A stretch of DNA of 64,000 nucleotides from contig NZ_CP088924.1 in assembly GCF_021545845.1 (NCBI RefSeq), forward strand, positions 124,001-188,000, given 5' to 3'. A program made the position numbers and the translations under genes. Shown here piece by piece: positions 8,441 to 59,138 of this stretch. The stretch is from Rhodanobacter thiooxydans. GTDB lineage: Bacteria > Pseudomonadota > Gammaproteobacteria > Xanthomonadales > Rhodanobacteraceae. Within the stretch, counting starts at the first letter, position 1. Every line of letters starts with the position of its first letter. A model generated the notes under the pieces. The model worked only from the letters and a program-made list of their open reading frames with translations. It had not been told where the DNA came from and did no database searches.

Positions 8441-9146
8441 AATCGATCTGCTCGACGCCATCGTCTTCGATCCGATGCAGCCCGGACTCTATTACCGGGT
8501 GCACCCGCAGCAAATCGGCGGCGCTGCGGTCGATCCCTTGGCACCCAACCCCTTCTCGCAGGCGCGCCTGGCGCTGACGCCGGCCGTGTCTCTTGGCCGC
8601 CAGCGCATAGGCATGTTCTACGCCGCCGATACGCCGGCGGGGGCCTTGTTCGAGGCGCTGTTCCGGAATGCCACCGTCTACCCGGGCCGGCAGCTCTACC
8701 TCAGCCGGAGTCGGCTGGAGGGCTACAGTCTGTCGGTCGTGCACCTGGTGAAGTCCATCGATCTGTTGCCGCTGGGCTTGCCCGCCCGCAAGCTCATCGT
8801 GGTGGACCCCGAGCGCACCAAGCGCTGGCTCCACCTGATGTCCACGCCAGAGCACAGCGAGACGCACGCGGCCGCCGGTGCGGTGGCGGCGCAGCTGGCG
8901 GCGGCGGGACAACTTCATGCCGGCTGGTCCTGGCCGTCGCTGCAGTTTCCATCCTCCACCGTGTACCTGCTCTATGACCCCCCGCTCGATCGGGCTGCTT
9001 GGGTGCTTCAGGAGACCATTGCGCTGGACACGCCGGCCGGTGAAGCGTTCATCACGGACGCCTTGGCCAGTGCCGGTTACGCGTGGCTGGCCGATCCGAT
9101 CGGCGCGGCCTACGGTCCGGGGCCAGCCGACGCCGGAGCGCTATGA
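8427..9146 (+). CDS. RES-domain toxin, predicted NAD+-degrading enzyme
   Basis: 239 residues. RES proteins such as MbcT and ParT act on NAD+ by phosphorolysis or ADP-ribosyl transfer. The Arg-Glu-Ser pattern is visible: Arg in GLYYRVHP, Tyr and Glu in GMFYAADTPAGALFEALFRN, and Ser in WPSLQFPSS. YSLSVVHLVKSIDLLPL is also typical. ATG at 8427 is preferred because GGAGG lies just upstream within the antitoxin gene; the frame opens at 8409. It overlaps the antitoxin by 14 bases and its stop overlaps the integrase start (ATGA), so all three should be translationally coupled. Confidence 0.85.
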   Translation: MPPGEIDLLDAIVFDPMQPGLYYRVHPQQIGGAAVDPLAPNPFSQARLALTPAVSLGRQRIGMFYAADTPAGALFEALFRNATVYPGRQLYLSRSRLEGYSLSVVHLVKSIDLLPLGLPARKLIVVDPERTKRWLHLMSTPEHSETHAAAGAVAAQLAAAGQLHAGWSWPSLQFPSSTVYLLYDPPLDRAAWVLQETIALDTPAGEAFITDALASAGYAWLADPIGAAYGPGPADAGAL

Positions 9147-10270
9147 GCAACGATCTCCTGGTCGTCGACAGCATCGACGGGTTGATCGGCGCTCCCGGCG
9201 TGGCTGAGGTCGCGGTGCGGGCCGCGGCTGCGCCCACCAGCGCCAAGGAGGTCCGTGCACGACTGGTGCGCTGGGAAGCCCGTTTCGTGGGCGGCCACCC
9301 CAAGGCGACGGTGCGCGCTGTGCGCGCCGACTGGGGACAGTACGTCAGCTGGTGCCAGGGGCTACGCCGATCTCCCCTGCCCGCGTCGGTCCTTCAACTG
9401 GAGGAGTTCGTCCGTAGCGCCATCGTGCTGGGGCGCAAGCGCTCCACCGTGCAGCGCTACGTGTATACGATCAACCTCGTGCACAAGGCCGCTGGTCTGC
9501 CCTCTCCTGCCGCGCATGCCGATTGGCCAGAGACCTGGAAGATGCTGCTGAAGCACCTCAAGGCACGCGGCGGCCTCATCACCAAGCAGGCCGGCGCCCT
9601 GGAGTACACCGACGTCCAGACCATCCTCGCCACCTTGGGCGAGTCACCGCGCGATCTGCGCGACGCGGCGATGCTGGCGCTGGCGTCAGATACGCTGGTG
9701 CGCGAGTCCGAGCTGGTGGCCGTGCGCGTCGAGCACTTCGAGCACAACCGGACCAAGGGCGTCTGGACGCTCCTGGTGCCCTTCTCCAAGAGCAACCAGG
9801 ACGGCCGTGGGGATTATCGGTTCGTCGACGGACCCACCATGGACGGCGTGCGGCGCTGGCTCGACGTGGCCGGTATCACGTCCGGGTTCGTGTTTCTGCC
9901 GATCGGCGGGCGACCGAAGTCGCCCCCGCCCGAGGACGAAAACACTCTGGAGCTCGCGGGGCAGAACGATGTGGACTTACGCGAGGCCACACGGTCCGCT
10001 GATGAAATCCAGCCGCTGGGCGCGGAGCAGGTGGCGCGTATCTTCCGGCGCCGCGCGCGCGCCGCGGGGCTCGAACATGCGCCGACCGTGTCCGGGCATT
10101 CGACACGAATCGGCACAGCCAACGACCTCATCAATGCCGGCAAGACCACGGCGCAGATCCAGCACGCGGGAGGCTGGCGCAGCGCGGAGATGGTGAACCT
10201 CTATACGCGTAGGTCCCAGGCAGGGGTCAACGCTGTGGCGGAGCTGCGTGGAAGCTGCAAGCCGAAGTAG
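9143..10270 (+). CDS. Tyrosine recombinase/integrase
   Basis: 375 residues. N-terminal SAM-like core-binding domain (RWEARFVGGHPKATVRAVRA), then a catalytic domain with the tetrad in order: Arg187 in TLVRESEL, Lys216 in FSKSN, His319-x-x-Arg322 in SGHSTRIG, His341 in QHAGGW, and nucleophile Tyr354 in MVNLYTRR. It would cut and rejoin DNA through a 3' phosphotyrosine, for integration, cassette exchange or dimer resolution. It starts inside the RES stop codon (ATGA overlap). No flanking att repeats were recognised, so its substrate is unknown. It belongs to the phage-type integrase family, not XerC/D proper. Confidence 0.88.
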   Translation: MSNDLLVVDSIDGLIGAPGVAEVAVRAAAAPTSAKEVRARLVRWEARFVGGHPKATVRAVRADWGQYVSWCQGLRRSPLPASVLQLEEFVRSAIVLGRKRSTVQRYVYTINLVHKAAGLPSPAAHADWPETWKMLLKHLKARGGLITKQAGALEYTDVQTILATLGESPRDLRDAAMLALASDTLVRESELVAVRVEHFEHNRTKGVWTLLVPFSKSNQDGRGDYRFVDGPTMDGVRRWLDVAGITSGFVFLPIGGRPKSPPPEDENTLELAGQNDVDLREATRSADEIQPLGAEQVARIFRRRARAAGLEHAPTVSGHSTRIGTANDLINAGKTTAQIQHAGGWRSAEMVNLYTRRSQAGVNAVAELRGSCKPK

Positions 10271-10508
10271 GTGCTTTCGACCACTCGGCCAAGATCCGCC
10301 GGGAGGCAAGGCTGATCCGGGCAGTGCGGACAAGGGCTGGCAGCTGAGATAGTCGACTCGTTCAGCCAGCCCACGTGGACAGCGAGCACTCGCCCAACAT
10401 TGAGCGACCCATCAGTTGCTCGTCCCACGCACCTTGATCGTGCGCGGGGGGCCGCCACTTGGCCTGCCATCCTTTAGGCTTGTCCGATGTGACCACAGGG
10501 ACGTAGCG

Positions 10509-13500
10509 ATGCCGCCGATCCAACAAGACGCCAGCGAGGCGTTCATCGCAAAGTGGCGCGGTGTCACGGCTTCCGAGCTGTCCACCGCACAGAGCTTCGC
10601 GATGGACCTGTGCCATCTCCTTGGGGTGGAGCCTCCGCACCCAGACCCCGACCAGCAGTACATGTTCGAGCGGCCAGTCACGTTCGCCCATGGCGATGGC
10701 AGCAGCTCGGCCGGACGCATCGATCTCTATAGGCGCAGCTGCTTCGTCCTGGAGGCCAAGAAGCTTAAAGCGCCGACACACACCAAGGGCTTCGACGACG
10801 CGATGCTGCGCGCGCGCAGCCAGGCTGAACAGTACGCCCGGGCATTGCCCGCCGCCGAGGGGCGGCCGCCGTTCCTGATTGTCGTTGACGTGGGCAACCG
10901 GATCGAGCTCTACGCCGAGTTCTCGCGCTCGGGCGGCACTTACACGCCCTTTCCCGATCCTCGCAGCCACCGCATCGCCCTCGAGGACTTGGCCCGAGAC
11001 ACCGTCCGGGAGCGGCTGCGCAAGGTCTGGACCGATCCCCTCTCGCTTGACCCCAGCCGCGAATCAGCGCGAGTCACCCGCGAGATAGCCGGCCGTCTGG
11101 CCGCGTTGGCCCGGAGCCTGGAAGCCGCTGGCCACCCGGCGGAGAGCGTGGCGCAGTTCCTCATGCGCTGTCTGTTCACCATGTTCGCCGAGGACGTCAG
11201 GCTCCTGCCCGAGGACAGCTTCCGGATCCTTCTGCAGACCCACGCCGAACAGCCCGAGACGGCGATGCGCATGCTCTCCAGACTGTGGCAGGACATGGAT
11301 GGCGGTGGCTTCTCCGCTGCCATCGCCACCGACGTGCTGCGATTCAACGGCAAGCTGTTCAAGCAGCCCGACACGCTGCCCCTCACCCGGGAGCAGATCG
11401 CGCTCCTGATCGAGGCGGCCAAGGCCAAGTGGGAACACGTGGAGCCGGCCATCTTCGGCACCCTGCTGGAGCGTGCACTGGACCCCAGCGAGCGGCACAA
11501 GCTCGGTGCGCACTACACACCCCGCGCCCACGTGGAGCGCCTGGTGCTGCCCGCGGTCATTGAACCGCTGCGCGACGAATGGGGCGACGCCCACGCCGCG
11601 GCACTCACCCTGGCCACCGAAGGCAAGTCGGACGATGCCGTGCACGTTCTCCGCCAGTTCCACCATCGGCTATGCACCGTACGAGTGCTCGACCCTGCGT
11701 GCGGCAGTGGCAACTTCCTCTATGTGACGCTAGAACACCTCAAGCGGCTGGAAGGCGAAGTGCTCAATGCGCTCGACGAGCTGGGCTACCGCCAGACCGG
11801 CCTGGCCTTGAGTGGTGAGCGCGCCGACGCTATGGGCGGAGAAACCGTTGACCCACACCAGCTCCTCGGGGTCGAACTGAATCCGCGCGCGGCGGCCATT
11901 GCCGAGGTGGTGCTATGGATCGGCTATCTCCAGTGGCACTTCCGCACCCGCGGCGACGTGAACCCGCCGCAGCCGGTCATCCGCGACTTCCGCAACATCG
12001 AGAACCGCGACGCCGTGCTCGCCTATGACGCGGTGGAGTTGGTGACCGGGGAGCACGGTGTGCCCGTCACCCGTTGGGACGGCAAGACCATGAAGCGCTC
12101 TGCAGTGACTGGCGAGCCCGTACCCGACGAGACATCTCGCGTGCCGCTTGAGCGCTACGTGAATCCCCGCAAGGCTGCGTGGCCCGAGGCAGATTTCCTG
12201 GTGGGAAACCCCCCGTTCATCGGTACAAAGCGCATGAAGTCCGTGTTGGGCGATGGTTATGTCGAAGCGCTGCGCGCCACGTGGTCGGACGTGCCCGAGT
12301 CGGCCGATTTCGTCATGTACTGGTGGCACATCGCGGCGCTGAACACTACAGCCGGAAAGGTGAAGCGGTTCGGTCTGATCACGACCAATTCCATTAGCCA
12401 GACGTTCAATCGCCGCGTGATGGAGGGGCCCCTCACCGATCCCAAGCGCCCTATCTCCCTAACCTTTGCTATACCGGATCACCCGTGGGTGGACGCCTCC
12501 GACGGCGCCGCGGTGCGCATTGCGATGACGGTCGGTATGCCGGGGCGCGGAATTGGGCAGTTGGCACGCGTCATCGAGGAGCGGGAAACCGAAACCGACG
12601 ATCGGGAGGTCATCCTTGAGACCAGTCAAGGTTTGATCCATGCCGATCTGCGGGTTGGAGCGGATGTGGGGTCAGCCAGACCGCTAATGGCCAATGAGCG
12701 CATCGCAGGCATGGGCGTTGCCCTGCACGGGTCCGGCTTCATCCTGACGCCGGAGGATGCCGAACGCTTGCGGGTCCATGGCCCCGGAATCATCAAGCCG
12801 TACATCGGCGGCAGGGATCTGTTGCAACGGCCTCGAGAGCGCTATCTCATCGATTTTTTCGGGCTTACCCAGGTCGAGGCACGCGCAGCCAATCCCGCTG
12901 CGTTCCAGCACGTCATCGACTACGTGAAGCCCGAGCGGGATCACAACAACCGAACGGCGCTTCGAGAGCTGTGGTGGCGCTTCGGATGGGAGCGCCCTGT
13001 CCTTCGGCGATCGATGACTGGCCTAAGTCGGTATATCGGAACCACCGAGACCTCGAAGCATCGCGTCTTTCAATTCATAGACGGCTGCGTTCTGGCGGAT
13101 CACAAGATCCTTTGCATCGCATGCGATGACGCTGCGATCCTCGGAGTTCTCTCTTCGATAATCCATAGCACTTGGTCTGACACCGTCGGCGGGCGCTTAG
13201 GCGTCGGTAACGACCCCGTTTACAACAAGACCCGATGTTTCGATCCCTTCCCATTTCCCGAGTTTGATCAGAACGACAAGCTCGCCGGCTCGATCGCGAT
13301 GGCGCGGGTCGACCGAGACGGTCAAGCTGGCCCCAGAGAGGCTCTCGCCACCTGTCCATCCGAGCGACTGCGTGAACTGGGCGAACAGCTCGATGCTCAC
13401 CGCAAGCGTCAGCAGGCCACCCACCCCGACCTGACTCTCACCGCCATGTACAACGTGCTGGAAAAGCTCCGCGGCGGTGAGTCACTGACGGGCAAAGAGC

Positions 13501-14066
13501 GGGTGATTCACGAGCAAGGATTGGTGTCGCTGCTTCGCCATCTGCATGATGAGATAGACGAGGCGGTGCTGGATGCATACGGCTGGGCCGACCTGCTGCA
13601 CCTATTGCGGGTGGCCCATGGCAACGATGTACCAGCGGCGAATACGAGTCGCGAAGACGCCCAGCGTGCGTTCGACGAAGTGCTGCTGGAGCGGCTTGTG
13701 GCACTCAATTCCAATCGTGCCGCCGAGGAGGCACGCGGTCAGGTGATGTGGCTGCGCCCCGCGTTCCAGAATCCCTCCGCCGAGGTCGCTCCCGATCAAC
13801 GCGATTTCCAGGGCGACTCGTTGGACGACGACGCCCCTGCAGCGGTCATCGGCAGAAAGCCGGAGCCCTGGCCCAAGGACGCCGTCGCCCAAGTGCGAGC
13901 TGTCGCAGATACCTTGGCCGCCACCCCGGTGCCGCTGGACGTTGATGAAATCGCTGCCCGATTCACCGCCCGTGGCCCGTGGAAAAAGCGCTTGCCTCAG
14001 CTGCTCCATATGCTGGTCGCGCTCGGCCGTGCCAGAGTCAACAACGGCAAGTATTCGACCCTGTAG
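10509..14066 (+). CDS. Single-chain type IIL (MmeI-like) restriction-modification enzyme
   Basis: 1185 residues combining endonuclease, adenine methyltransferase and target recognition. Seen: a PD-(D/E)XK site near the N-terminus (RIDLYRRSCFVLEAKKLK; Asp72, Glu82, Lys84); a helical linker; the SAM-binding motif DPACGSGNFLYVTLEHL from about residue 395; catalytic motif NPPF near 566; a target-recognition domain (PYIGGRDLL onward to NDPVYNKTRCFDPFPFP); a C-terminal helical tail. MmeI-like enzymes methylate one strand and cut at a fixed distance, so one gene gives host protection. The ATG at 10509 was chosen at the domain start; the frame is open about 30 codons further up. Part of the recognition domain around 13020-13220 is lower in G+C, as expected for a swapped specificity module. 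Confidence 0.9.
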   Translation: MPPIQQDASEAFIAKWRGVTASELSTAQSFAMDLCHLLGVEPPHPDPDQQYMFERPVTFAHGDGSSSAGRIDLYRRSCFVLEAKKLKAPTHTKGFDDAMLRARSQAEQYARALPAAEGRPPFLIVVDVGNRIELYAEFSRSGGTYTPFPDPRSHRIALEDLARDTVRERLRKVWTDPLSLDPSRESARVTREIAGRLAALARSLEAAGHPAESVAQFLMRCLFTMFAEDVRLLPEDSFRILLQTHAEQPETAMRMLSRLWQDMDGGGFSAAIATDVLRFNGKLFKQPDTLPLTREQIALLIEAAKAKWEHVEPAIFGTLLERALDPSERHKLGAHYTPRAHVERLVLPAVIEPLRDEWGDAHAAALTLATEGKSDDAVHVLRQFHHRLCTVRVLDPACGSGNFLYVTLEHLKRLEGEVLNALDELGYRQTGLALSGERADAMGGETVDPHQLLGVELNPRAAAIAEVVLWIGYLQWHFRTRGDVNPPQPVIRDFRNIENRDAVLAYDAVELVTGEHGVPVTRWDGKTMKRSAVTGEPVPDETSRVPLERYVNPRKAAWPEADFLVGNPPFIGTKRMKSVLGDGYVEALRATWSDVPESADFVMYWWHIAALNTTAGKVKRFGLITTNSISQTFNRRVMEGPLTDPKRPISLTFAIPDHPWVDASDGAAVRIAMTVGMPGRGIGQLARVIEERETETDDREVILETSQGLIHADLRVGADVGSARPLMANERIAGMGVALHGSGFILTPEDAERLRVHGPGIIKPYIGGRDLLQRPRERYLIDFFGLTQVEARAANPAAFQHVIDYVKPERDHNNRTALRELWWRFGWERPVLRRSMTGLSRYIGTTETSKHRVFQFIDGCVLADHKILCIACDDAAILGVLSSIIHSTWSDTVGGRLGVGNDPVYNKTRCFDPFPFPEFDQNDKLAGSIAMARVDRDGQAGPREALATCPSERLRELGEQLDAHRKRQQATHPDLTLTAMYNVLEKLRGGESLTGKERVIHEQGLVSLLRHLHDEIDEAVLDAYGWADLLHLLRVAHGNDVPAANTSREDAQRAFDEVLLERLVALNSNRAAEEARGQVMWLRPAFQNPSAEVAPDQRDFQGDSLDDDAPAAVIGRKPEPWPKDAVAQVRAVADTLAATPVPLDVDEIAARFTARGPWKKRLPQLLHMLVALGRARVNNGKYSTL

Positions 14067-21811: not shown

Positions 21812-23209
21812 TCAGTTCTCCGGGAGAAGTTCGACGTCATCCGTCGTATAGGGGGTCACTACCGCGCCGCCGGTGGGCTGGCTGAGCGACACGCGGAACA
21901 CGCGCTTGTCGGTGCCAGTGAAAGCGTTGGTGCGGATGGTGACCGTCTTGCTCGTCACATCACCTTGGCTCCAGTACACGGTCTGGTCCACGCCGCTGTA
22001 GTCCCGTCCATCGAGCGCCGTACCGGGCTGTGTGGACACGACCACGGACACCATGCCGCTGCCGCCGTTGCGCGTGATGGAGATCGCCAGCGGGCGCCCG
22101 CCGGTGACGCTGTAGAAGCCGGTGGCGAAGGTGATTTCGCCCGGCCCCGTGGGGGCGTCGGAGGTCTGCGTGGGGACGGTCTTGGAGACGTCCGCCTCGA
22201 TCGCTTCCGTGGACCCCTGGTAGTCCATGTCGTCCAGACGGCTTTGCGTGCGGTCGCTCACCGGGACGCGATCGGGGTTGCCGTAGTTGTTGCCCGAGCC
22301 GGTGTAAAGATCCTCGGCAGCATTCGGGTCCATCACGTCGTCTGGCAGGAAGCCGCCCATCTGCATTCGCCCGATGATCTCGTTGAGGTCGTCCTCGTCG
22401 CTGATGTTGAGACTCATCATCTGAGCCATCGGAATGCCCGCGCAGTTCGGGTGCTTGGCCGAACCCATGTCACCCACGCCTTGCTGGAGAAGCTCCTCGC
22501 GCATCATGCGGCTCATAGGGGAGTTGAAGCAGCAGTAGATCTCCTTCTTGACCAAGCACGTCCCGAGAACTTTGCTCTGGCATCGTGACCCCAGGTAATG
22601 GCACGTGCCGGCATTGCGCTGCACCGCCGTCTCGAAGTCCGAGTCGTCGCAGTACCACTGGAGGTTCGGCTTCACCCGGGTGTTCTGGTCCTTCATGAAA
22701 GCCGCGTTCACGTCCGCCATGCTCCCGCTCTGGTCACCGGACACGTCGCCGCCGCCGCCGAGCAGGTTCTCGAAGCTCGAGGTGAATGACTGCGACAGAT
22801 CCCAATGGTCGGCGCCGCCGTCCATCTGTGACCACGCACCCTGCACGTGGTCCACGAGCTTGCTCGCGTCGACGGCGGACGCCTGCTTCTGCGTCTTGCG
22901 GTAGGCGTCCCACCAGCTCTTGTTCGCATCGGGGACCGGCTTCTTGCAGCACTTGAGCAGTCCGCCAAGCATGTTCTTGCAGTCCAGCCGCTTGCCCGCC
23001 ATGAAGGTGAGCTTGTTCAGATCCAGGTTCAGCGACTCCACGCCGCCAATGTCGTCCGGCGACCTCACTTCCTTCTGCGTCTGCCACTGGATCGCCTGCT
23101 GCTCGGTCCATCCTTCCGGGATCGCCGGCGGGTTTGACTGGGCATACGCGACCGCGGTCACGGCTAGGCCACACAGGACGCCAGCGAGCGCCTTCATCGT
23201 CTTCTTCAT
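21812..23209 (-). CDS. TraN C-terminal half as a separate secreted protein with a Calx-beta domain
   Basis: 465 residues with its own signal peptide (LAGVLCGLAVTAVAYA). The middle matches the C-terminal conserved block of TraN mating-pair stabilisation proteins: CHYLGSRCQSKVLGTCLVKK then YCCFNSPMSRMMREELLQQG, with PNCAGIP. From about residue 345 the sequence ITFATGFYSVTGG...YSGVDQTVYWSQGDVTSKTV is a Calx-beta domain, a calcium-binding beta sandwich found in adhesins and not known in F TraN. It starts 15 bases after the preceding TraN piece. Together the two gene products appear to supply one TraN function in the donor outer membrane. Confidence 0.8.
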   Translation of the reverse strand: MKKTMKALAGVLCGLAVTAVAYAQSNPPAIPEGWTEQQAIQWQTQKEVRSPDDIGGVESLNLDLNKLTFMAGKRLDCKNMLGGLLKCCKKPVPDANKSWWDAYRKTQKQASAVDASKLVDHVQGAWSQMDGGADHWDLSQSFTSSFENLLGGGGDVSGDQSGSMADVNAAFMKDQNTRVKPNLQWYCDDSDFETAVQRNAGTCHYLGSRCQSKVLGTCLVKKEIYCCFNSPMSRMMREELLQQGVGDMGSAKHPNCAGIPMAQMMSLNISDEDDLNEIIGRMQMGGFLPDDVMDPNAAEDLYTGSGNNYGNPDRVPVSDRTQSRLDDMDYQGSTEAIEADVSKTVPTQTSDAPTGPGEITFATGFYSVTGGRPLAISITRNGGSGMVSVVVSTQPGTALDGRDYSGVDQTVYWSQGDVTSKTVTIRTNAFTGTDKRVFRVSLSQPTGGAVVTPYTTDDVELLPEN

Positions 23210-23224
23210 TGATCTACCCGCCTC

Positions 23225-26200
23225 CTACGGGTTTGCCCACGCGGGCACCAGCGCGTTCGTCGTCTGGGTGTTAGTTGATTGAGTGGCGGCGGCGCCGGCC
23301 GGCTCGCCGGTGTACTCCCAGTCGGTCATGACCGCGTTGGCCTTCGCCTGAGTGGCCAGCGACTTGTTCCGGGAGTAGGACTCTTCATCCCGTTTGTCCG
23401 GCGAGGTGCACGAGCCGTCTAGGCAGGCCTGGTTGCCTGAGCACGTGGTCACCTCGGAAACGGTGTGGTCCGTGACCGGCACGCCCTTCGTGCATGCGTA
23501 CTGGTTGGTCTCCACGTAGCAGAAGCCGTTGGAGCCGCGGCCGCCGTCGGCGCAATCTGTCGACTTGAGCTTGCAGGTGGGATCCTTCTCGAGGTCTTCG
23601 CAGGAATCCGGCGAATCGGCGTCCTTCGGCGGCGCCTCCACGCAATGGCGCGTGCCGTCATCGTCATCCCAGCAGACCGTGCCCTCGGTCTGCGTGATGC
23701 CCTGGCAGTCGTAGTGGAGCGTTGCCACCATGCACGTGCCGCCGTCGCCGTCGAACAGCGGCGGCTCCTGCTGCACAACCTCGGCCGGGATCACGCCGCT
23801 GGCGACGGTAATCGGCGCGCGGGTGTCACACGTCCAGTAGACGCGGCAGAACGCATCGCTCTGCATGTCGCACTTGCCATCGTCCTTGATCTCGAAGCCA
23901 TAAACCGGATACCCGTCCATGTCCCACGTCAGCGTGACCTTAGGCTGCCCAGGGGGCTCATCGGCCCAGGAGTCGCGCGTCGTCTCGAAGACGGCGATCC
24001 AGCCATTGGCGTAGGTCGGCGGCTGGACCAGCTTCACGGTGACGCCGGTGATCGGCAGGGAGACCACCCATTTGAAGTTGTAGAGCTCGCGCGTGATAGG
24101 AAGCACTTGGTCGGCGATCGACACCGAGGTGCGCTTGCCTCCAGTCCCCGCGCACACCTGGTCATACTCGGCGTTGAGGCAGCTCTCGGCTTCGCCCGGG
24201 TACAGGTCGCCACGCCCGCCGGCAATCAGGTCGCTATACGTCAGGGGGATGCCGTCGTCCGTGGTGCCCGGCACTTTCTTGGTGCACCTCCAGACCATCT
24301 TGCAGCTGGGGCTCTCCGGCGATGCGTTGCAGTCACCCGCGTCTACGGTGCCGGTCGCGATCTTCTGCTCGCTCAGGACGTCCCAGGTCATGTGGATGTG
24401 GGGCTTCGCGGGGGTTGCAGCGCCGTTACCGGTGTACTGGCGCGTGACCTTGAAGGACGCCGTCCAGCCGTTCTGCAGCGTTGGCGCCGACACGAGGCCA
24501 ACGGCCAAGTTCGTGTCCGGGTTGGTCACGTACCACTTGAACGCTGAGATATCCGTCGTGCCCGCCGGCAGCAGGTCGCCGATCCCGATGCTGGTGCCAA
24601 TCGACGACGATCCGTTGCACACGCGGTTCAACTCACCCACCACGCACGTGTTCGGCGCGCCGGGGAACAGAGGTGCCTTCGTCGCGGCCAGAGTGGTGGA
24701 CACCGCCAGACCGTTGATCGTCGTCGGGGCGTTCTGCGTGCACGTCCACTTCGTCGGACACGCGGCGCTGCCCGTATCAGCACAGTTGCCGGTGTCGCCC
24801 ACGCCGACGTCCGTGGTGGACGTCGTCACGCTCCACGTCATCACGATGTGGGGCTTCTGCGGCACGTAGGAGAAGTTCGTGCGGCTGACCTTGAACCCGG
24901 CCACCCAGCCATTGGCCTGCGTCGGCGTCTGGGTAAGGGTCACCGTGACGCCGGGCTGCGGATTGGTCACGGTCCACTGGAAGTTCGTCACCCGAACGGC
25001 GCTGATCTCGCCCGCGGCGGCCACCGGAATGACGAAATTCGCGAACGTGGTGAAGAGGTCAGGATCCGCGGCACGACGCAGCAGCGAGCCATAAGTCGCG
25101 CCCGTGGGAACCTTGTCACCGATCGAGATGGACGAGCCTAAAGCAGCTGTGCCGCCGCACGTGCGGTTCAAGTTTGCGACCACGCACGTCGATGGCGCGC
25201 CGGGGTACAGCGGTGCCTTGCTCTGAGCCAGGGCGGCGGTCACCGTCTTGCCGTTTACCGTGTATGGCGCGCCTGCCACGCAGGACCACTTGGTCGGACA
25301 CTGAGAGCTACCGGGATCACCGCAGTTGCCGCTGTCCCCGACGGTCGCCGTCTCCGATCCGACGTTGTAAAAGACGCTAAAGCTGTAACCGTTGTTGTAC
25401 TGCGTGAGGAATTTCTGAGTCCAAGACACCACAGACCCGTGCAGGGCAATATTTGTAATCGAAACGCCGGGGTCGTGACTGAGTATGTATCGGTTAAACA
25501 CTGTACCGCGTGGAACGGGATTTGGATTGGTAATCGAGTTGTATACAGACAGATCGACCGACTGGTTCGTAACTTGGCCAACCGGCGCGGGAGCGCCGAA
25601 ACCCGACATATGGCTGATCACTAAATAGAACGTCGACGCTTCCGATACCGAGCCCGTGACGCCGATTGTGCGGGTACACGAGAGCCCACCCATTTCCGTG
25701 CTGATCGGCAAGTCGCCCTGCGCCGTCCCCGTCGAGGTCGCGCTCGTTGACCCAGCCGTCATCACCCGTCGACACGACAAACCCCCGGTCTCAGTCGTGA
25801 TATTGAGGTCGCCGTCGCGGGTCTGGTGCAGGGTGTCGCGGTAGTAGTGCGCGGTGGTCTTGCGCGTGCAGACCTGGCCGGTCGTGCCATGCTCCACTAG
25901 CAGCTCAGCTGTCTTGGTGCCGGGCTGGCGCGGGATCGACACGGTGCCGACACGGGTGCGCTTGCAGATATCGCCCTGCTCCATGGGCGTCAGGATCTTC
26001 TCGCACGTCTTGTAGTCGGTGATGTAGCCCTCGGTCTCCACCGGCGTGACGACGGTGGTGTCCTTGCAGTCGGAGAACGCCTCACCGAGCACGTTGCCGT
26101 TCTGTGCATCAGACAGGGTATCCAACGATCCAGTCAGGGTGCCGTCGTTGGCCACCTGTTCTTTCGTGACGGACTTATTGGTGGCCGATGCATCCACCGT

Positions 26201-26614
26201 GCTGGACGCCTGCTGCAGGACGCTGGTGCCGTTGGCCGACACAGCCTCCTGCTCGTCGTAGGTCTTCTTCAGCTGCAGCAGGTCATCGTGCGTATTGGCG
26301 TCCTCGAGCTTCTTGACGTAGTCCTTGTCGGCCGTGGTCGACCCAGGCACCAGCCGATTCATGTCGATCTGGGTGCCGTTGATGTTGGCCACGCCCGTGC
26401 CCGCCTCGCCGCCCTCCTGGAAGCCGACGTTCGGCTTGGCCGAAAGCAGCGCGTCCCCGTCCGAGCTACCGCTTTGGGTCGCAGTCGTCGTCGCTTGGGT
26501 CGTAAGAGGCGCGACGGTCGGCGTCGTGTCCTGCGCGGACGCGACACCACCCCCGAAGCAAACGAGGGCAGCGGACAGCGCCACGGCGATGAGTCGGGCC
26601 GGTGGAATACGCAC
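23225..26614 (-). CDS. traN: TraN N-terminal/central part, Cys-rich repeat adhesin
   Basis: 1129 residues, signal peptide to about residue 27. Residues 170-250 carry the TraN-type N-terminal block (SDCKDTTVV, YKTCEKILTPMEQGDICKRT). Four tandem units follow, each a beta-rich part (FKWYVTNP..., KPHIHMTWDV) plus a Cys-rich part with the pattern GDxGNC...CPTKWxC...APLxPGAPxTCVV: Cys parts start near residues 426, 606, 757 and 911. A last Cys cluster (VCWDDDDGTRHC to CLDGSC) ends near 1070. TraN contacts recipient outer-membrane proteins and sets recipient preference. GTG start with AAAGGA upstream. Residues about 325-415 are encoded by DNA near half G+C, well below the surroundings. Confidence 0.8.
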   Translation of the reverse strand: MRIPPARLIAVALSAALVCFGGGVASAQDTTPTVAPLTTQATTTATQSGSSDGDALLSAKPNVGFQEGGEAGTGVANINGTQIDMNRLVPGSTTADKDYVKKLEDANTHDDLLQLKKTYDEQEAVSANGTSVLQQASSTVDASATNKSVTKEQVANDGTLTGSLDTLSDAQNGNVLGEAFSDCKDTTVVTPVETEGYITDYKTCEKILTPMEQGDICKRTRVGTVSIPRQPGTKTAELLVEHGTTGQVCTRKTTAHYYRDTLHQTRDGDLNITTETGGLSCRRVMTAGSTSATSTGTAQGDLPISTEMGGLSCTRTIGVTGSVSEASTFYLVISHMSGFGAPAPVGQVTNQSVDLSVYNSITNPNPVPRGTVFNRYILSHDPGVSITNIALHGSVVSWTQKFLTQYNNGYSFSVFYNVGSETATVGDSGNCGDPGSSQCPTKWSCVAGAPYTVNGKTVTAALAQSKAPLYPGAPSTCVVANLNRTCGGTAALGSSISIGDKVPTGATYGSLLRRAADPDLFTTFANFVIPVAAAGEISAVRVTNFQWTVTNPQPGVTVTLTQTPTQANGWVAGFKVSRTNFSYVPQKPHIVMTWSVTTSTTDVGVGDTGNCADTGSAACPTKWTCTQNAPTTINGLAVSTTLAATKAPLFPGAPNTCVVGELNRVCNGSSSIGTSIGIGDLLPAGTTDISAFKWYVTNPDTNLAVGLVSAPTLQNGWTASFKVTRQYTGNGAATPAKPHIHMTWDVLSEQKIATGTVDAGDCNASPESPSCKMVWRCTKKVPGTTDDGIPLTYSDLIAGGRGDLYPGEAESCLNAEYDQVCAGTGGKRTSVSIADQVLPITRELYNFKWVVSLPITGVTVKLVQPPTYANGWIAVFETTRDSWADEPPGQPKVTLTWDMDGYPVYGFEIKDDGKCDMQSDAFCRVYWTCDTRAPITVASGVIPAEVVQQEPPLFDGDGGTCMVATLHYDCQGITQTEGTVCWDDDDGTRHCVEAPPKDADSPDSCEDLEKDPTCKLKSTDCADGGRGSNGFCYVETNQYACTKGVPVTDHTVSEVTTCSGNQACLDGSCTSPDKRDEESYSRNKSLATQAKANAVMTDWEYTGEPAGAAATQSTNTQTTNALVPAWANP
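23699..25339 (-). repeat. Four tandem Cys-rich modules inside traN
   Basis: At protein level, the Cys parts lie at about 25339-25100, 24799-24560, 24346-24095 and 23884-23699, separated by 150 to 180 residues from start to start. The first two are closest to each other (shared TxxxGDxGNC, CPTKW, APLxPGAPxTCVV, NRxC), the last most diverged. DNA-level identity is low enough that slippage is unlikely now; this reflects older duplication. Confidence 0.75.
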
Positions 26615-55039: not shown

Positions 55040-55347
55040 AGGGGAATTGGGCCGGCGAAAGGGGGCCGCTGGAGGGGGCCGTTACGGCCGAGCGCATCCT
55101 CGACCGAGGCACGCACCAGCCCTTGGCGTCCCCCGCGGGCGGCGTCGAGATCTGGCGGGATCGGTGGTCCTACGACGCGATGGCGGACAGGTTCGCGGGA
55201 TCAGCATGTAGCGAACCCCCATGGGGAACGCCCCCCGTTCCCCATGTCTGTCATGGGGAACGCTGCAGACGCCCATGACCGAAACGGACGGTCGAAACGG
55301 CAGCGTTTCGCCTGAGTGGGGAAACCGCCTTTCCCCATGATAGATAG
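54842..55347. other. Divergent non-coding region between parM and mobI-like gene
   Basis: 506 bases with no convincing coding sequence. The left third holds the GGTGCAGAT repeats. From 55201 onward it is dominated by inverted repeats built on CATGGGGAACG. Both divergent promoters should lie here, and the mobI side is the best oriT candidate in the window. Base composition is similar to the neighbours. Confidence 0.6.
55220..55337. other. Inverted-repeat-rich segment upstream of mobI-like gene, candidate oriT
   Basis: CATGGGGAACG (55220-55230) pairs with CGTTCCCCATG (55236-55246), a perfect 11-bp stem with a five-base loop; a third copy CATGGGGAACG occurs at 55252-55262. Then CCGAAACGG (55279) and TCGAAACGG (55292) with CGTTTCG (55304), and finally TGGGGAAA (55317) facing TTTCCCCA (55330). 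In IncC and SXT elements oriT lies directly upstream of mobI, so position and repeat structure agree. A nic site cannot be assigned. A regulatory role is the alternative. Confidence 0.5.
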
Positions 55348-55944
55348 ATGAATGGGAACACGCCCCAAAACCAGCACCTAACAATCTCTTCCGTCGAAGC
55401 CAGCCAAGGGCTCGACGAGCTTCGGGCCATCGCATCCCACCTTCAGCTCGCCGAGGCATTGGTCGAGGCCGAAGCAACGGCCTTGATGACGGCCTTCCGA
55501 GAGGCACGACTCGAACTGAGAAACCAGGCCGCAGTCCAGCAGCCAGGGGAGGCGGTTGACACCAAGGCGGGCAAATACTCGCCGCTCAATCTCGGGGTCA
55601 GGGCGCACAAGGGTGGGCTGGAGATCTACTGGTTCACCCAGAACAAGGCCGCGACGGGTAGGACCGCATATCGGTACTTGCCACTGGGGCGAGGCGGGCG
55701 GGCGGGGCACGGGTACCAGCTGCCCGGGCTGCTGGCCCATGCCAGGCCGTATGAGCGTGACTTGGTTCGAGAAACCGAGGGACGGGCAACCGCGCTCCGC
55801 GCCCGGCGAGCCGCCCTTGTTGATCTGCGCCGATCCGCCCAGCGACTCGTGAAGCAGTACGAGGAGCAAGTGAGCCGGGACCAGGCCCAGCCGGACAGGC
55901 ATGTTGGCGCGGACCCGTTTGGTGCCGTCCAGCTCCCGGGGTAA
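55348..55944 (+). CDS. MobI-like conjugative transfer initiation protein
   Basis: 198 residues. Layout of MobI(A/C) proteins: helical N-terminus (LDELRAIASHLQLAEALVEAEATAL), a central strand pair (LEIYWFTQNKAATGRTAYRYLPL), GYQLPGLLAHARPYERDLVRETEGRATALRARRAALVDLRR. MobI is needed for relaxase action at oriT in IncC and SXT/R391. ATG at 55348 immediately follows the inverted-repeat segment. Assignment rests on residue pattern and position; identity to known MobI is modest. The N-terminus also tolerates small helical-protein alternatives. Confidence 0.6.
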   Translation: MNGNTPQNQHLTISSVEASQGLDELRAIASHLQLAEALVEAEATALMTAFREARLELRNQAAVQQPGEAVDTKAGKYSPLNLGVRAHKGGLEIYWFTQNKAATGRTAYRYLPLGRGGRAGHGYQLPGLLAHARPYERDLVRETEGRATALRARRAALVDLRRSAQRLVKQYEEQVSRDQAQPDRHVGADPFGAVQLPG

Positions 55945-55977: not shown

Positions 55978-56235
55978 ATGGATTCACACACCCACATTCA
56001 ACCGCCCGTACAGCCGCCGGGTAGTGCCCCGCCCGCCGCATGGTCTGCCGTGGCGCATTACCTCGCGCATCAGCGAGGCCACCACATCCCGCTTGCCGCC
56101 CTGCTCCGGGCGCCGTGGCGCTGCCTGTTGAACCTCAAGGCAGGCCACGTCGACCGCGGCACTGCCAGCGCAACGGTCCGGACACTGCCGGTCCGGGCGG
56201 GAGGCAGTGGCCTCGACAGCTCTTGCAACGATTAA
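55978..56235 (+). CDS. Small hypothetical protein, first of the S49/CFI/Cas4-like operon
   Basis: 85 residues with a His/Pro-rich N-terminus (DSHTHIQPPVQPPGSAPPAAW), a short helix (AVAHYLAHQRGHHIPLAALL) and a basic middle. AGGAG three bases before the ATG at 55978 makes translation likely. It ends 64 bases before the S49 peptidase start, whose ribosome binding site lies in the gap. No family recognised. Confidence 0.6.
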   Translation: MDSHTHIQPPVQPPGSAPPAAWSAVAHYLAHQRGHHIPLAALLRAPWRCLLNLKAGHVDRGTASATVRTLPVRAGGSGLDSSCND

Positions 56236-56299
56236 CCACCACCGGGTCAAGCGGCCCGATCGCGCCGAGGAAGTCGGTGTGCCACACCAGGAGAACGTA

Positions 56300-57295
56300 G
56301 TGACTGATACCAAAGACCATGACCACGCGGGTGCCGACCAGGGCGACTGGCGCATCGCCGTCGTTGATGCCGCCCAGGCGGTGGCCAACCACATGGTCCG
56401 CAGCGAGGCCAGGGAGCGCCGGGAGGCGAACTGGAGAAAGCTGAAGCGTGGCGTGTTCATCGGCTTGGCTCTGGGCGGCATGCTCTCGTACTGGATGTTC
56501 ATTCGGAGCCTCGCCGGTACGCCGGCCAGCGACCCCAATCCGAGCTCCAACGCCGTGGCGGTCATCCCCATCGAGGGGGAGATCTCCGGCGCGGCCAGGG
56601 CCTCCGCCGACAAGGTCGTCGGGATGCTCGAGCGGGCGTGCAGCAACGCCAAGGTCAAGATCGTGCTGCTGGACATCAACTCGCCGGGTGGCTCGCCTAC
56701 GGAGGCGGAGCGGATGGTGGCGGGCATTAATCAGTGCCGCACCAAGCAGCACAAGCCGATCTATGCCCTGATCGACCAGATGGGGGCCTCGGCGGCCTAC
56801 ATGGTGGCGATGCACGCGGATCGGGTTTACGCCGGGAAGTACTCCGTCGTGGGCTCGATCGGGGCGATCATGCGCTACCTCGACGCCAGTGACGCCGCTG
56901 CCCGCTTTGGCCTGACCGAGCACGTGTTCCGATCCGGCGACCTCAAGGGTGGGGTGTCGACGTGGTCCAAGACCTCTCCCGAGGACGCCGCGCTGAACAC
57001 AGAGATGGTCAAGGCCATGGGCGCGGCGTTCGTTGATGACCTGTTCGCCACGCGCGGCGCGCGACTGCATGCCACCCGAGAGGAGATCGCTTCCGGGCGG
57101 GTCTGGACCTCCGACCAAGCCCTTGCGATGGGGTTGATCGACAAGCAGGCCGTCTTCGAGGAGCTCAAGACCACCGAGTTCAAAGGGCTGAAGGTGTCCC
57201 GGTACGACAGTCGCCCCCCGGTGACGCGCCTCCTCGGTCTTGAAGAGACGCTGCGCTCGGTCGTGGCGGATGTGCTGCAGCCGAGGTTCGAGTGA
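56300..57295 (+). CDS. Membrane-anchored S49 peptidase (SppA/SohB-like)
   Basis: 331 residues. One transmembrane helix near the N-terminus (KRGVFIGLALGGMLSYWMFI), then the S49 fold: VAVIPIEGEISG, KIVLLDINSPGGSPTEAERM, catalytic Ser164 in DQMGASAAYMVAMHAD, SVVGSIGAIM, and a likely general-base Lys in FRSGDLKGG. S49 enzymes cut within or at the membrane surface and clear signal peptides or membrane fragments. GTG at 56300 follows AGGAGAACGTA. Overlaps the CFI-box gene by a GTGA. A single-domain member, shorter than E. coli SppA, resembling short bacterial SppA36 forms. Confidence 0.88.
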   Translation: MTDTKDHDHAGADQGDWRIAVVDAAQAVANHMVRSEARERREANWRKLKRGVFIGLALGGMLSYWMFIRSLAGTPASDPNPSSNAVAVIPIEGEISGAARASADKVVGMLERACSNAKVKIVLLDINSPGGSPTEAERMVAGINQCRTKQHKPIYALIDQMGASAAYMVAMHADRVYAGKYSVVGSIGAIMRYLDASDAAARFGLTEHVFRSGDLKGGVSTWSKTSPEDAALNTEMVKAMGAAFVDDLFATRGARLHATREEIASGRVWTSDQALAMGLIDKQAVFEELKTTEFKGLKVSRYDSRPPVTRLLGLEETLRSVVADVLQPRFE

Positions 57296-57768
57296 AACCC
57301 AGGAGCGAGCAGGACTACCTCCCGGCGACGGCGTTGGCCTCGCTGGGGTTCTGTGAGGTCAAGATTCTCAACGAAGGCCGCTATGGCCGGCAGAGCACCG
57401 CGGAGCAGGCGGAATCGGCCAAGGCTGGGATCCAGGAGCATGACCGATTTCACCAGGTCGTCTCGGAACTCCACAACCAGCCCAAGCCGCCACAGGACCG
57501 CCGGTGCTTCATCGCTACGGCCATGTGGGGTGCGGACGATCCGCGCACTCAGCAGCTGCGCGACTGGAGGGACAGGGTCCTGCTCACGCATCGGTTTGGA
57601 CGGTGCGCGGCAGGTGTCTACTATGCCATCAGCCCATCGCTGGTCCGGCTCATTGAGCGCTGGCCGGGGCTGCGTGGCCCGGCCGGCCGCACCTTGGAGT
57701 GGGTGCGTCGATGGCTGGTTGGGCGTGAATCAGGGAGGGAATCTCAATGGCCATCGAGAATGAGCTGA
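57292..57768 (+). CDS. CFI-box domain protein
   Basis: 158 residues. The box RRCFIATAMWGADDPRTQQLRDWRD begins at residue 71 with Cys72, then a hydrophobic stretch (RCAAGVYYAISPSLVRLIERW). An N-terminal part (RYGRQSTAEQAESAKAG...HDRFHQVV) has the charged look of the family. CFI-box proteins are of unknown function and often lie in membrane-linked operons. GTG at 57292 shares bases with the S49 stop. It overlaps the next gene by 22 bases. Confidence 0.72.
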   Translation: MKPRSEQDYLPATALASLGFCEVKILNEGRYGRQSTAEQAESAKAGIQEHDRFHQVVSELHNQPKPPQDRRCFIATAMWGADDPRTQQLRDWRDRVLLTHRFGRCAAGVYYAISPSLVRLIERWPGLRGPAGRTLEWVRRWLVGRESGRESQWPSRMS

Positions 57769-58415
57769 CGACCGTGAGGCTGCGCGTAGAACTGACCGAC
57801 ACCCGAGACTTGGTCCTCTTCGAGGAGCAGGACCGTGCCGAGCGCCACTACCGCCACATCCACGGGGCGCTTATGGACGCGGGGAGCCGTCGATCTGCAG
57901 CCGAGACGCAGGCTCAGGTGGACCGGGCGGGTGAGTTTGTCCTGTCGGCAGCGGACGCGGGCCGCGCGACCATCAAGTCGCTGCAGTCGCAGATTCAGGC
58001 CATCCGGGAGGACACGAGCCGGAGTCGAGCAGAGACCGACTGGCGTGTGGCGGCCGTAGCCGACATGGACACGATTCGAGAGAAGGGCCAGTACGTGCTG
58101 GGCGTGCATGCCAACGCGGCCTTGGCGGGCCGGGCCATCACGGACGCGGCCCTTGCCACAGCGTGGGAGACCAACGGGCTGCTGCACGGGACGGGGTTTG
58201 AGCGCCTCCACCAGACCGCCCACTGGCTCCACGCCTACGTCAGGGAGCGGCGCGCGGTGTGGCTTGCCCGCCTGACCACGATCACCGGGCTGGAGATTCG
58301 GTCCCTTGCGGACGCGGACGTGACGTGGGAGTCGGAGTCCGCTCAGCGTACCCACTGGGTCGTGAGCAACCTCCCGTCCGGTTGGGACGCGGCGATCCCC
58401 AGCGAGGAGGCGTGA
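57747..58415 (+). CDS. Helical protein, 222 aa, in S49/CFI/Cas4-like operon
   Basis: Mostly helical and charged (AGEFVLSAADAGRATIKSLQSQIQAI, RRAVWLARLTTITGLEIRSLA). GGAGGGAATCTCA lies before the ATG at 57747. It starts inside the CFI-box gene and ends with TGATG overlapping the Cas4-like start. No membrane helix or known domain. Tight overlaps on both sides suggest it works with its neighbours. Confidence 0.62.
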   Translation: MAIENELTTVRLRVELTDTRDLVLFEEQDRAERHYRHIHGALMDAGSRRSAAETQAQVDRAGEFVLSAADAGRATIKSLQSQIQAIREDTSRSRAETDWRVAAVADMDTIREKGQYVLGVHANAALAGRAITDAALATAWETNGLLHGTGFERLHQTAHWLHAYVRERRAVWLARLTTITGLEIRSLADADVTWESESAQRTHWVVSNLPSGWDAAIPSEEA

Positions 58416-59017
58416 TGCACTGGCTTGATGCTCTCTTCCTGCTTGGCCTGGTCGCCGCTTATCTGCTCTACCGGGCGGACGTGGCGCGCCGGGGCCGGCG
58501 AGAGGGGGCTCGTGGCCTGTACGAGCGCCACGAGCGCAGCCGGATGCCGGCCGTGATCGCCGAAGGGCGGCTGGTTCTCTCCGAGACCTATCACCGCACC
58601 GACGTTCCCCGTCGTCTCGGCGCGCGGTTCGACCAGGTGTTCTCCGGAACGGACGGTCTGCTGTACGTGGTCGACACGAAACGCCGTCGGCGCCGGGTCG
58701 TCTACGGCTACGACCAGATCGAGCTGTCCGTCCAGGCGGCGGTGCTTCGCCACGGGCGCGTACCGGGCGGAACCGGTCCTGTGGCCCCCGTGGGTTTTAT
58801 TCGCATCGTCTGTCAGGGGGTGGTGAGCTATGAGCGTGTGGCCTTGCTGAGTGACGAGCGGTTGGCCAACTTGCACGCGCGGTATTTCGCCGTGGTGCGG
58901 GGCCAGGTGCAGCCTTGCGGACCGGAGACGCCCGGCGCGTGCCGGAAGTGCGCGTATCTCGCGCGTTGTGAGACGGGTCGGCGGTTCGTCGCCTCCGGAC
59001 GCCGACGGGCCGCCTGA
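58415..59017 (+). CDS. Membrane-anchored Cas4-like PD-(D/E)XK nuclease
   Basis: 200 residues. N-terminal transmembrane helix (WLDALFLLGLVAAYLLY), then a nuclease core: FDQVFSGTDGLLYVVDTKRR with Asp80 and Asp87-x-Lys89, then YDQIELSVQAAVLRH, which looks like the helical Q motif of Cas4/RecB nucleases. A C-terminal cluster Cys168, Cys176, Cys179, Cys185 (PCGPETPGACRKCAYLARC) could hold an iron-sulfur cluster; Cas4 uses one N-terminal and three C-terminal cysteines, so here all four are C-terminal. Starts within the 222-aa stop codon. No cas genes are nearby. Confidence 0.65.
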   Translation: MHWLDALFLLGLVAAYLLYRADVARRGRREGARGLYERHERSRMPAVIAEGRLVLSETYHRTDVPRRLGARFDQVFSGTDGLLYVVDTKRRRRRVVYGYDQIELSVQAAVLRHGRVPGGTGPVAPVGFIRIVCQGVVSYERVALLSDERLANLHARYFAVVRGQVQPCGPETPGACRKCAYLARCETGRRFVASGRRRAA

Positions 59018-59046
59018 TCGGCCGGTCGGCAGGGTGGGCGATTGAT

Positions 59047-59072
59047 GGGCCGGGAGACCGGCCCTTCTTTTT
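59047..59072 (+). terminator. Rho-independent terminator of the S49/CFI/Cas4-like operon
   Basis: GGGCCGG, loop GAGA, CCGGCCC, followed by TTCTTTTT. Perfect seven-base GC stem with a GNRA loop; it lies 30 bases past the Cas4-like stop. Marks the end of the unit that begins at or before 55978. Confidence 0.93.
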
Positions 59073-59138
59073 GCCTGAACTTTGGCCCCCGTGTGCTTGG
59101 TTGATCGTGGGTGGGACACCACCGCGTAGGAGTAGCCC

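Follow-up and report, generated by a model that had tools for sequence, protein, structure and literature searches.

A window of 64,000 nucleotides (the whole stretch of DNA analysed, positions 124001–188000 of the second contig, 218,064 bases long, of a 4.2-Mb Rhodanobacter thiooxydans genome) contains two genes that probably encode a split nuclease of the Cas4/Exo5 type, usually membrane-tethered, in which the active site and a metal cluster are shared by two polypeptides. The genes lie in a single operon:

57292..57768, + strand: CFI-box protein (NF041770, E 1.8e-18, as named in a preliminary description of this DNA), whose N-terminal partner domain, 57313–57468, aligns to the Cas4 N-terminus by hhalign
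58415..59017, + strand: PD-(D/E)XK nuclease core (PF12705, AlphaFold2 model, VIA-align) with an N-terminal membrane-type helix and a C-terminal CxxCx5C, inside a longer open frame starting at 58259

In the proposed enzyme, the 58415–59017 product would supply the alpha/beta nuclease core, with D73, D87, K89 and a QxxxQ/Y helix, and three of the four cluster ligands. The partner domain of the 57292–57768 product would contribute two helices in trans, one bearing the first cysteine of the cluster and the other the GxxxH histidine. Three C-terminal ligands from the core and one from the partner would thus make up a four-ligand cluster. The halves would meet at the inner membrane, using an N-terminal helix on the nuclease and either a C-terminal helix on short partners or the CFI box in long ones. 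The assembled enzyme may use single-stranded or resected DNA as its substrate when the plasmid is transferred, becomes established or recombines. The sequences, the predicted core fold, the co-occurrence, the complementary alignment to Cas4 and the paired anchoring are observed; that the two chains bind each other and share a cluster, which DNA they act on and what they do in the cell are inferred.

The nuclease core

The preliminary description called the 58415–59017 product a PD-(D/E)XK nuclease. The PF12705 (PDDEXK_1) match agrees, at 22.1 bits against a gathering cut-off of 22, and covers only profile positions 102–247 of 247. The AlphaFold2 model (predicted local distance difference test score 92.2, predicted template-modelling score 0.77) consists of a long N-terminal helix at residues 3–43 followed by the nuclease fold, which is predicted to be that of Cas4, MGME1 and Exo5. 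The Cas4/RecB fold anticipated in the preliminary description is supported by the model, the core of which aligns to the following structures, taken as the families among the matches listed by VIA-align (rmsd, root-mean-square deviation):

MGME1, 8xa9_B: Z 11.4, rmsd 3.5, 123 residues
Cas4/Cas1, 7mi4_A: Z 10.7, rmsd 4.0, 136 residues, model 50–196 on chain 65–213
AdnA, 9np6_A: Z 10.4, rmsd 3.5, 152 residues
Cas4, 8d3l_J: Z 8.9, rmsd 4.2, 133 residues, chain 60–206
Exo5, 7lwa_A: Z 8.8, rmsd 3.8, 139 residues
Dna2, 5eaw_A: Z 8.1, rmsd 4.1, 146 residues

The motif residues line up as expected of a PD-(D/E)XK enzyme, which was another point raised at the outset: D73 is kept in 55 of 56 nucleases, and D/E87 and K89 in all 56. 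A QxxxQ/Y helix is also present. The C-terminal cluster of four cysteines did not survive, since the first of the four is not conserved and only three ligands, CxxCx5C, are kept. Across the 56 nucleases the C-terminal pattern is CxxCx5C in 26, CxCx4H in 21 and something else in 9. The Azospirillum nuclease frame (L011:7923-8393) stops ahead of any C-terminal cysteines.

What the core lacks is the first ~60 residues of Cas4, the piece with the first cysteine and GxxxH. In four Cas4 structures (7mi4, 7mi5, 8d3l and 8d3q) the VIA-align match starts at Cas4 residue 60–66; for SSO0001 (4ic1_G) the aligned stretch is longer, −2 to 202, though at 7.6 angstrom. The same truncation appears with TIGR00372 (180 positions), which matches the nucleases of L019 (57–179, E 3.4e-10), L009 (68–179, E 1.2e-4) and a relative from IncC (incompatibility group C) plasmids (67–119, E 4.4e-4). 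The best of these scores, 40.0 bits for L019, is below the curated cut-off of 65 bits, and TIGR00372 gives no match to the nucleases of the window or of L006. The features by which Cas4 is recognised are therefore distributed: the core with its conserved D and D/ExK is in the nuclease chain, the helices with Cys and GxxxH are not, and of the four cluster cysteines three are in the nuclease and one is in the partner.

The partner domain and its complementary alignment to Cas4

The partner domain comprises ~50 residues, SATELAxLGxCE...GxxxH. In the window it forms the N-terminus of the CFI-box protein, while in the IncC locus L014 it is the small gene following mobI. Such short partner genes were found with a profile built from CFI-box proteins; six have no Pfam family and two have no NCBIfam family. 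In the partner alignment (A6), C14, G39 and H43 are invariant in 19/19 rows, the Azospirillum partner (L011), with its cysteine one residue off, being excluded. We take the GxxxH histidine to be an active-site residue in RecB/Cas4 nucleases.

In hhalign comparisons, the partner and the nuclease cover different parts of Cas4 without overlap. The Cas4 set comprised 25 sequences, picked among PF01930 matches as frames with a CxxCx4-6C motif. Here, A6 aligned to Cas4 columns 42–85 with E 0.002, such that the cysteines coincide and so do the GxxxH motifs, and none of 400 column-shuffled versions scored as high. The nuclease profile (A9) aligned to columns 109–223 of the same set with E 1.1e-7. When 7 Cas4 sequences were used instead, the partner gave E 0.024, with 1 of 200 shuffles as good. 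A profile restricted to the N-terminal half of CFI-box proteins gave E 0.0047, and four control profiles (S49, helical, nuclease and CFI-box half) gave E 0.24–0.8.

Several results weigh against a split enzyme. The hhalign probability of the partner/Cas4 alignment is only 13.8%, which is low because the domain is short. Neither half, used as a sequence profile against the PDB, retrieves a Cas4; A9 reached a helicase chain of AdnAB (6ppu_B, 7sjr_B; E 0.89). No fusion of the halves was found: among 68 nuclease homologues the partner profile scored E 0.66 at best, and among 11 CFI homologues the nuclease profile reached no better than E 0.38. In addition, the structure model of the CFI-box protein is poor and gave no useful fold match, and some nuclease members have no C-terminal cysteines.

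The same data could describe a nuclease that is complete alone, as a shortened PD-(D/E)XK enzyme whose metal site has three ligands. The partner would then be a regulator or inhibitor in its own right, imitating the Cas4 N-terminus and inactivating the enzyme by docking at that position. Consistent with this, the core fold is predicted alone with high confidence, D and D/ExK are all on one chain, and co-occurrence is expected of an inhibitor too. However, the Cas4 profile includes the segment missing from the core, and the partner retains the exact Cas4-type residues (Cys, Gly and His, as above), of which the histidine would be needless for an inhibitor. We consider this explanation unlikely.

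Co-occurrence, adjacency and paired anchoring

Further support for two halves of one enzyme came from their distribution. The nuclease is present in 4 of 398 genomes of the order Lysobacterales and the partner (E < 1e-10) in the identical 4; five further weak partner matches were taken as chance. The partner was also found in the fetched DNA of 29 of 33 nuclease loci, which are not independent, several being nearly identical and 21 of these sequences having gone into the partner profile. Searching the whole record or genome recovers it for 3 of the other 4, and the last, L025, is a 4-kb contig of a metagenome-assembled genome. In Photobacterium both genes are present though unlinked, 38 kb apart. 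In a plasmid collection the nuclease matched 1095 records (E 1e-3) and the short partner 1079 (E 1e-2), as separate and not joint counts; most records with relatives of either are conjugative plasmids from Klebsiella, Salmonella, Escherichia and similar genera.

What stays constant across the arrangements seen is a PD-(D/E)XK nuclease accompanied by a protein that opens with the partner domain; the remaining genes vary. The two genes are divergent in L009, L010 (both Pseudomonas, with a 72-residue partner) and L023, the order is downstream in L029, they overlap by a few bases in L013, L017, L018 and L019, and they are adjacent in L060. The CFI-box and nuclease genes also overlap in Aeromonas pS121-1b. 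A short partner directly follows annotated mobI in L008, L012, L014 and L016, and in Azospirillum L011 the partner lies after mobI, one gene ahead of the nuclease. The IncC locus L014 runs mobI, a 95-residue protein, a replication gene and, further on, the nuclease and S49-DsbA (partner 867–1154 right after mobI, nuclease 6249–6770, S49 8503–9462).

Anchoring was matched in 17/17 pairs: in 6 both proteins are membrane-type, in 5 neither is, and in 6 a membrane-type nuclease goes with a CFI-box partner. The pair of L009 (Pseudomonas putida) is short and soluble. That all 6 CFI-box partners accompany membrane-type nucleases points to the CFI box as a substitute for the membrane helix of short partners.

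Two old, conserved genes of the MOBH/MPF_F backbone could be co-inherited without forming one enzyme, since both lie among transfer genes, where common ancestry alone yields co-occurrence, and in several plasmids they are kilobases apart. Such an origin does not account for their complementary alignment to a single Cas4 chain, for the pairing of membrane-type or soluble forms, or for adjacency in settings as unlike as divergent, downstream and overlapping genes, and we hold it to be distinctly unlikely.

The operon and its accessory genes

The other features of the locus are as follows:

55220..55344, no strand: candidate origin of transfer (oriT), inverted and direct repeats of the CATGGGGAACG family upstream of mobI, recognised by repeat spacings
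55348..55944, + strand: MobI-like transfer protein (PF19456, E 9.1e-13)
55978..56235, + strand: small protein of 85 residues, with profile matches in five Lysobacterales relatives (L004, L005, L006, L020, L022)
56300..57295, + strand: S49 (SppA-type) peptidase (PF01343, E 1.4e-27), start set by homology to L004
57747..58415, + strand: helical protein of no named family, with profile matches in L004, L005, L020 and L022
59047..59072, + strand: intrinsic terminator, from its stem, T-run and folding energy

The frames and the computed terminator fold confirm the preliminary description's operon of five genes in the order small, S49, CFI-box, helical, nuclease, with a MobI-like gene upstream. The overlaps are as described, GTGA at 57292–57295, 22 bases at 57747–57768 and TGATG at 58413–58417. 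The terminator, rated excellent in the preliminary description, is strong: the stem occupies 59047–59064 and is followed by a T-run, and the region 59035–59080 folds at −26.6 kcal/mol (z −5.07), with 0/200 shuffles as stable.

The S49 family assignment is secure (97 bits against a cut-off of 24.9), and the Ser in GASAAY and the Lys in SGDLKGG are invariant in an alignment of 7; numbered from 56207, these are S195 and K247, presumably the Ser/Lys catalytic dyad. The start is most likely GTG 56300 rather than 56207, because the Rhodanobacter homologue in L004 begins at the matching residue; 64 bases then separate it from the small gene. The membrane anchor claimed for this protease found no support here, as its hydrophobic stretch scores 1.41 on a 19-residue Kyte-Doolittle scale, under the threshold of 1.6 applied. 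The small gene between mobI and S49 is unannotated in L004 (6402–6707) and L005 (5405–5713).

The order mobI, small, S49, CFI-box, helical, nuclease recurs in L004 and L022 (Rhodanobacter), L005 and L020 (Dyella) and L006 (Xanthomonas citri), mobI being present in L020 and L022 also. In L006 the order is kept, but the gene in the helical place has no recognisable homology, with only 19% identity to the helical protein, and is missed by the helical profile. Conservation of gene order, on which the preliminary description had staked its claim to a system, accordingly extends to five Lysobacterales loci and not outside that order. Even there it is not universal, as two other arrangements were seen: in Rhodanobacter R5 (L013, likewise L062) the CFI-box and nuclease genes are adjacent with S49 several genes off, and L060 has only the adjacent pair within the stretch read. 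The L062 pair (G442:C1:2057000-2075000) is on a 4.2-Mb single contig and may therefore belong to an integrated element and not a plasmid.

It had been proposed that all five genes form a membrane system, in which protease and nuclease process DNA or proteins at the pore or exclude competing DNA. The tight coupling and the order kept in the five Lysobacterales loci fit such a system, and in plasmids of IncC and of Vibrionaceae, too, S49 and the nuclease are only a few genes apart. However, the helical and small genes were not detected by profile in fetched loci other than those listed for them above, and S49 is missing from 5/15 plasmids that carry partner and nuclease, which rules it out as an obligate partner of the nuclease. 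Nor does defence find support: in PADLOC the nuclease reached E 0.02 at best (a Cas4 model), and eight other proteins gave nothing up to E 1. The five-gene reading thus appears improbable, and the S49, helical and small proteins are accessories of the nuclease/partner pair.

The helical protein matched no named family in library scans. Homology to the gene that precedes the nuclease gene in IncC, in pAsa4 and in Pseudoalteromonas is unsupported (15–19% identity in a forced alignment); by eye, the Pseudoalteromonas gene (L012:7373-7861) looks transglutaminase-like. A phage origin was also set aside, the only PHROG match being an uninformative one to the helical protein (E 0.03), with none for five other proteins searched.

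Transfer context and possible role

The candidate oriT has repeat spacings of 32 and 93, which are also found upstream of mobI in L004; in IncA/C plasmids, oriT lies immediately upstream of mobI (excerpt of PMC5587640). The window has F-type transfer families by Pfam (TraN, TrbC, TraC, TrbI, TraK, TraE, TraG, TraH and TraF). As to the TraI/TraD cluster sought nearby, the contig does encode a MOBH relaxase and a TraG/TraD-type protein, though at a different place from these transfer genes. Judged by its predicted genes, namely MobI, MOBH relaxase, TraG/TraD coupling protein and F-type type IV secretion system, the contig is of the A/C-like MOBH/MPF_F kind. The closest plasmid-collection records to the window are from Rhodanobacter and Dyella, the window's own record being possibly absent there.

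Elsewhere in the window are a DNA polymerase III alpha-type protein (PF07733, PF17657; 120–2165, +), on this plasmid-sized contig, and an MmeI-like restriction-modification protein of 1216 residues (10416–14066, +; PF20473, E 3.1e-29, and three further MmeI domains). The TraN-like protein (21812–23209, −) has a Calx-beta match near its C-terminus at 25.5 bits, under the cut-off of 27, and beside it is a 1129-residue open frame (23225–26614, −) without a Pfam match at E 0.001.

Nucleases of this fold class process single-stranded or resected DNA ends. As the pair also lives among plasmid transfer genes, a role at the membrane is proposed, if only tentatively, in which it processes ends or strands of the plasmid's DNA in transfer, establishment or recombination. 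The chances seem about even that conjugative plasmids of the A/C-like and related MOBH groups encode a heterodimeric Cas4-type nuclease, complete only where and when its membrane subunits meet, with the histidine and one cluster ligand provided in trans and the CFI box serving as the membrane or assembly module of the long form.

In pVCR94, mobI is vcrx001 and repA is vcrx003 (excerpts of PMC3915882 and PMC4207636). The IncC short partner should be vcrx002, because gene order puts it between these two; vcrx002 appears in the literature searched as a map boundary. The AcaCD-regulated operon of IncC begins at vcrx012 (excerpt of PMC10954446), which by gene count may lie just after the nuclease gene. 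Exclusion is an unlikely role for the pair, since IncC exclusion is accounted for by eexC and sfx (excerpt of PMC11493245).

Comparison with known systems

The ordinary-looking operon thus probably conceals a two-chain Cas4-like nuclease, a new form of a known enzyme. The open-access literature searched yielded no report of a split Cas4-like nuclease, no paper tying Cas4 to the IncC backbone and none on the CFI box. If the proposal is right, it offers a function for two genes conserved in an important group of plasmids, one of them beside mobI and oriT, a first mechanistic lead on the CFI box, and an example of a Cas4 cluster and active site built from two chains. Enzymes of this kind are known from CRISPR immunity and DNA repair, and the pair is on many conjugative plasmids, including the clinically important IncC, where in two records the pair genes shown (both, or one) are annotated as hypothetical.

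Like Cas4 (TIGR00372, PF01930; solo- and MGE-Cas4, the latter from mobile genetic elements), the nuclease has a PD-(D/E)XK core, a QxxxY-type helix and a C-terminal CxxCx5C, and in the partner the Cys helix and the GxxxH helix follow each other as they do in Cas4. Unlike Cas4, there are two polypeptides, the break between them is marked by a membrane-type helix, the core has three ligands, and the score is under the curated cut-off. According to PMC5704561, all Cas4 members have four conserved cysteines, and one Cas4 clade is apparently tied to Burkholderiales conjugative plasmids; words starting with "split" are absent from the main text of that paper.

In MGME1, Exo5, Dna2 and AdnA/AddB the nuclease domain is one chain, unlike the pair described here from sequence and predicted fold. 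We know of no membrane anchor like this one for those nuclease domains. With IncA/C (IncC) and A/C-like MOBH plasmids, the shared features are MobI, the MOBH relaxase, the MPF_F genes and, in many relatives, the ParM-mobI arrangement. The IncC locus L014 has both halves, as does the window, but there a replication gene and others stand between them, the partner has no CFI box, and the nuclease ends in CxCx4H, not CxxCx5C.

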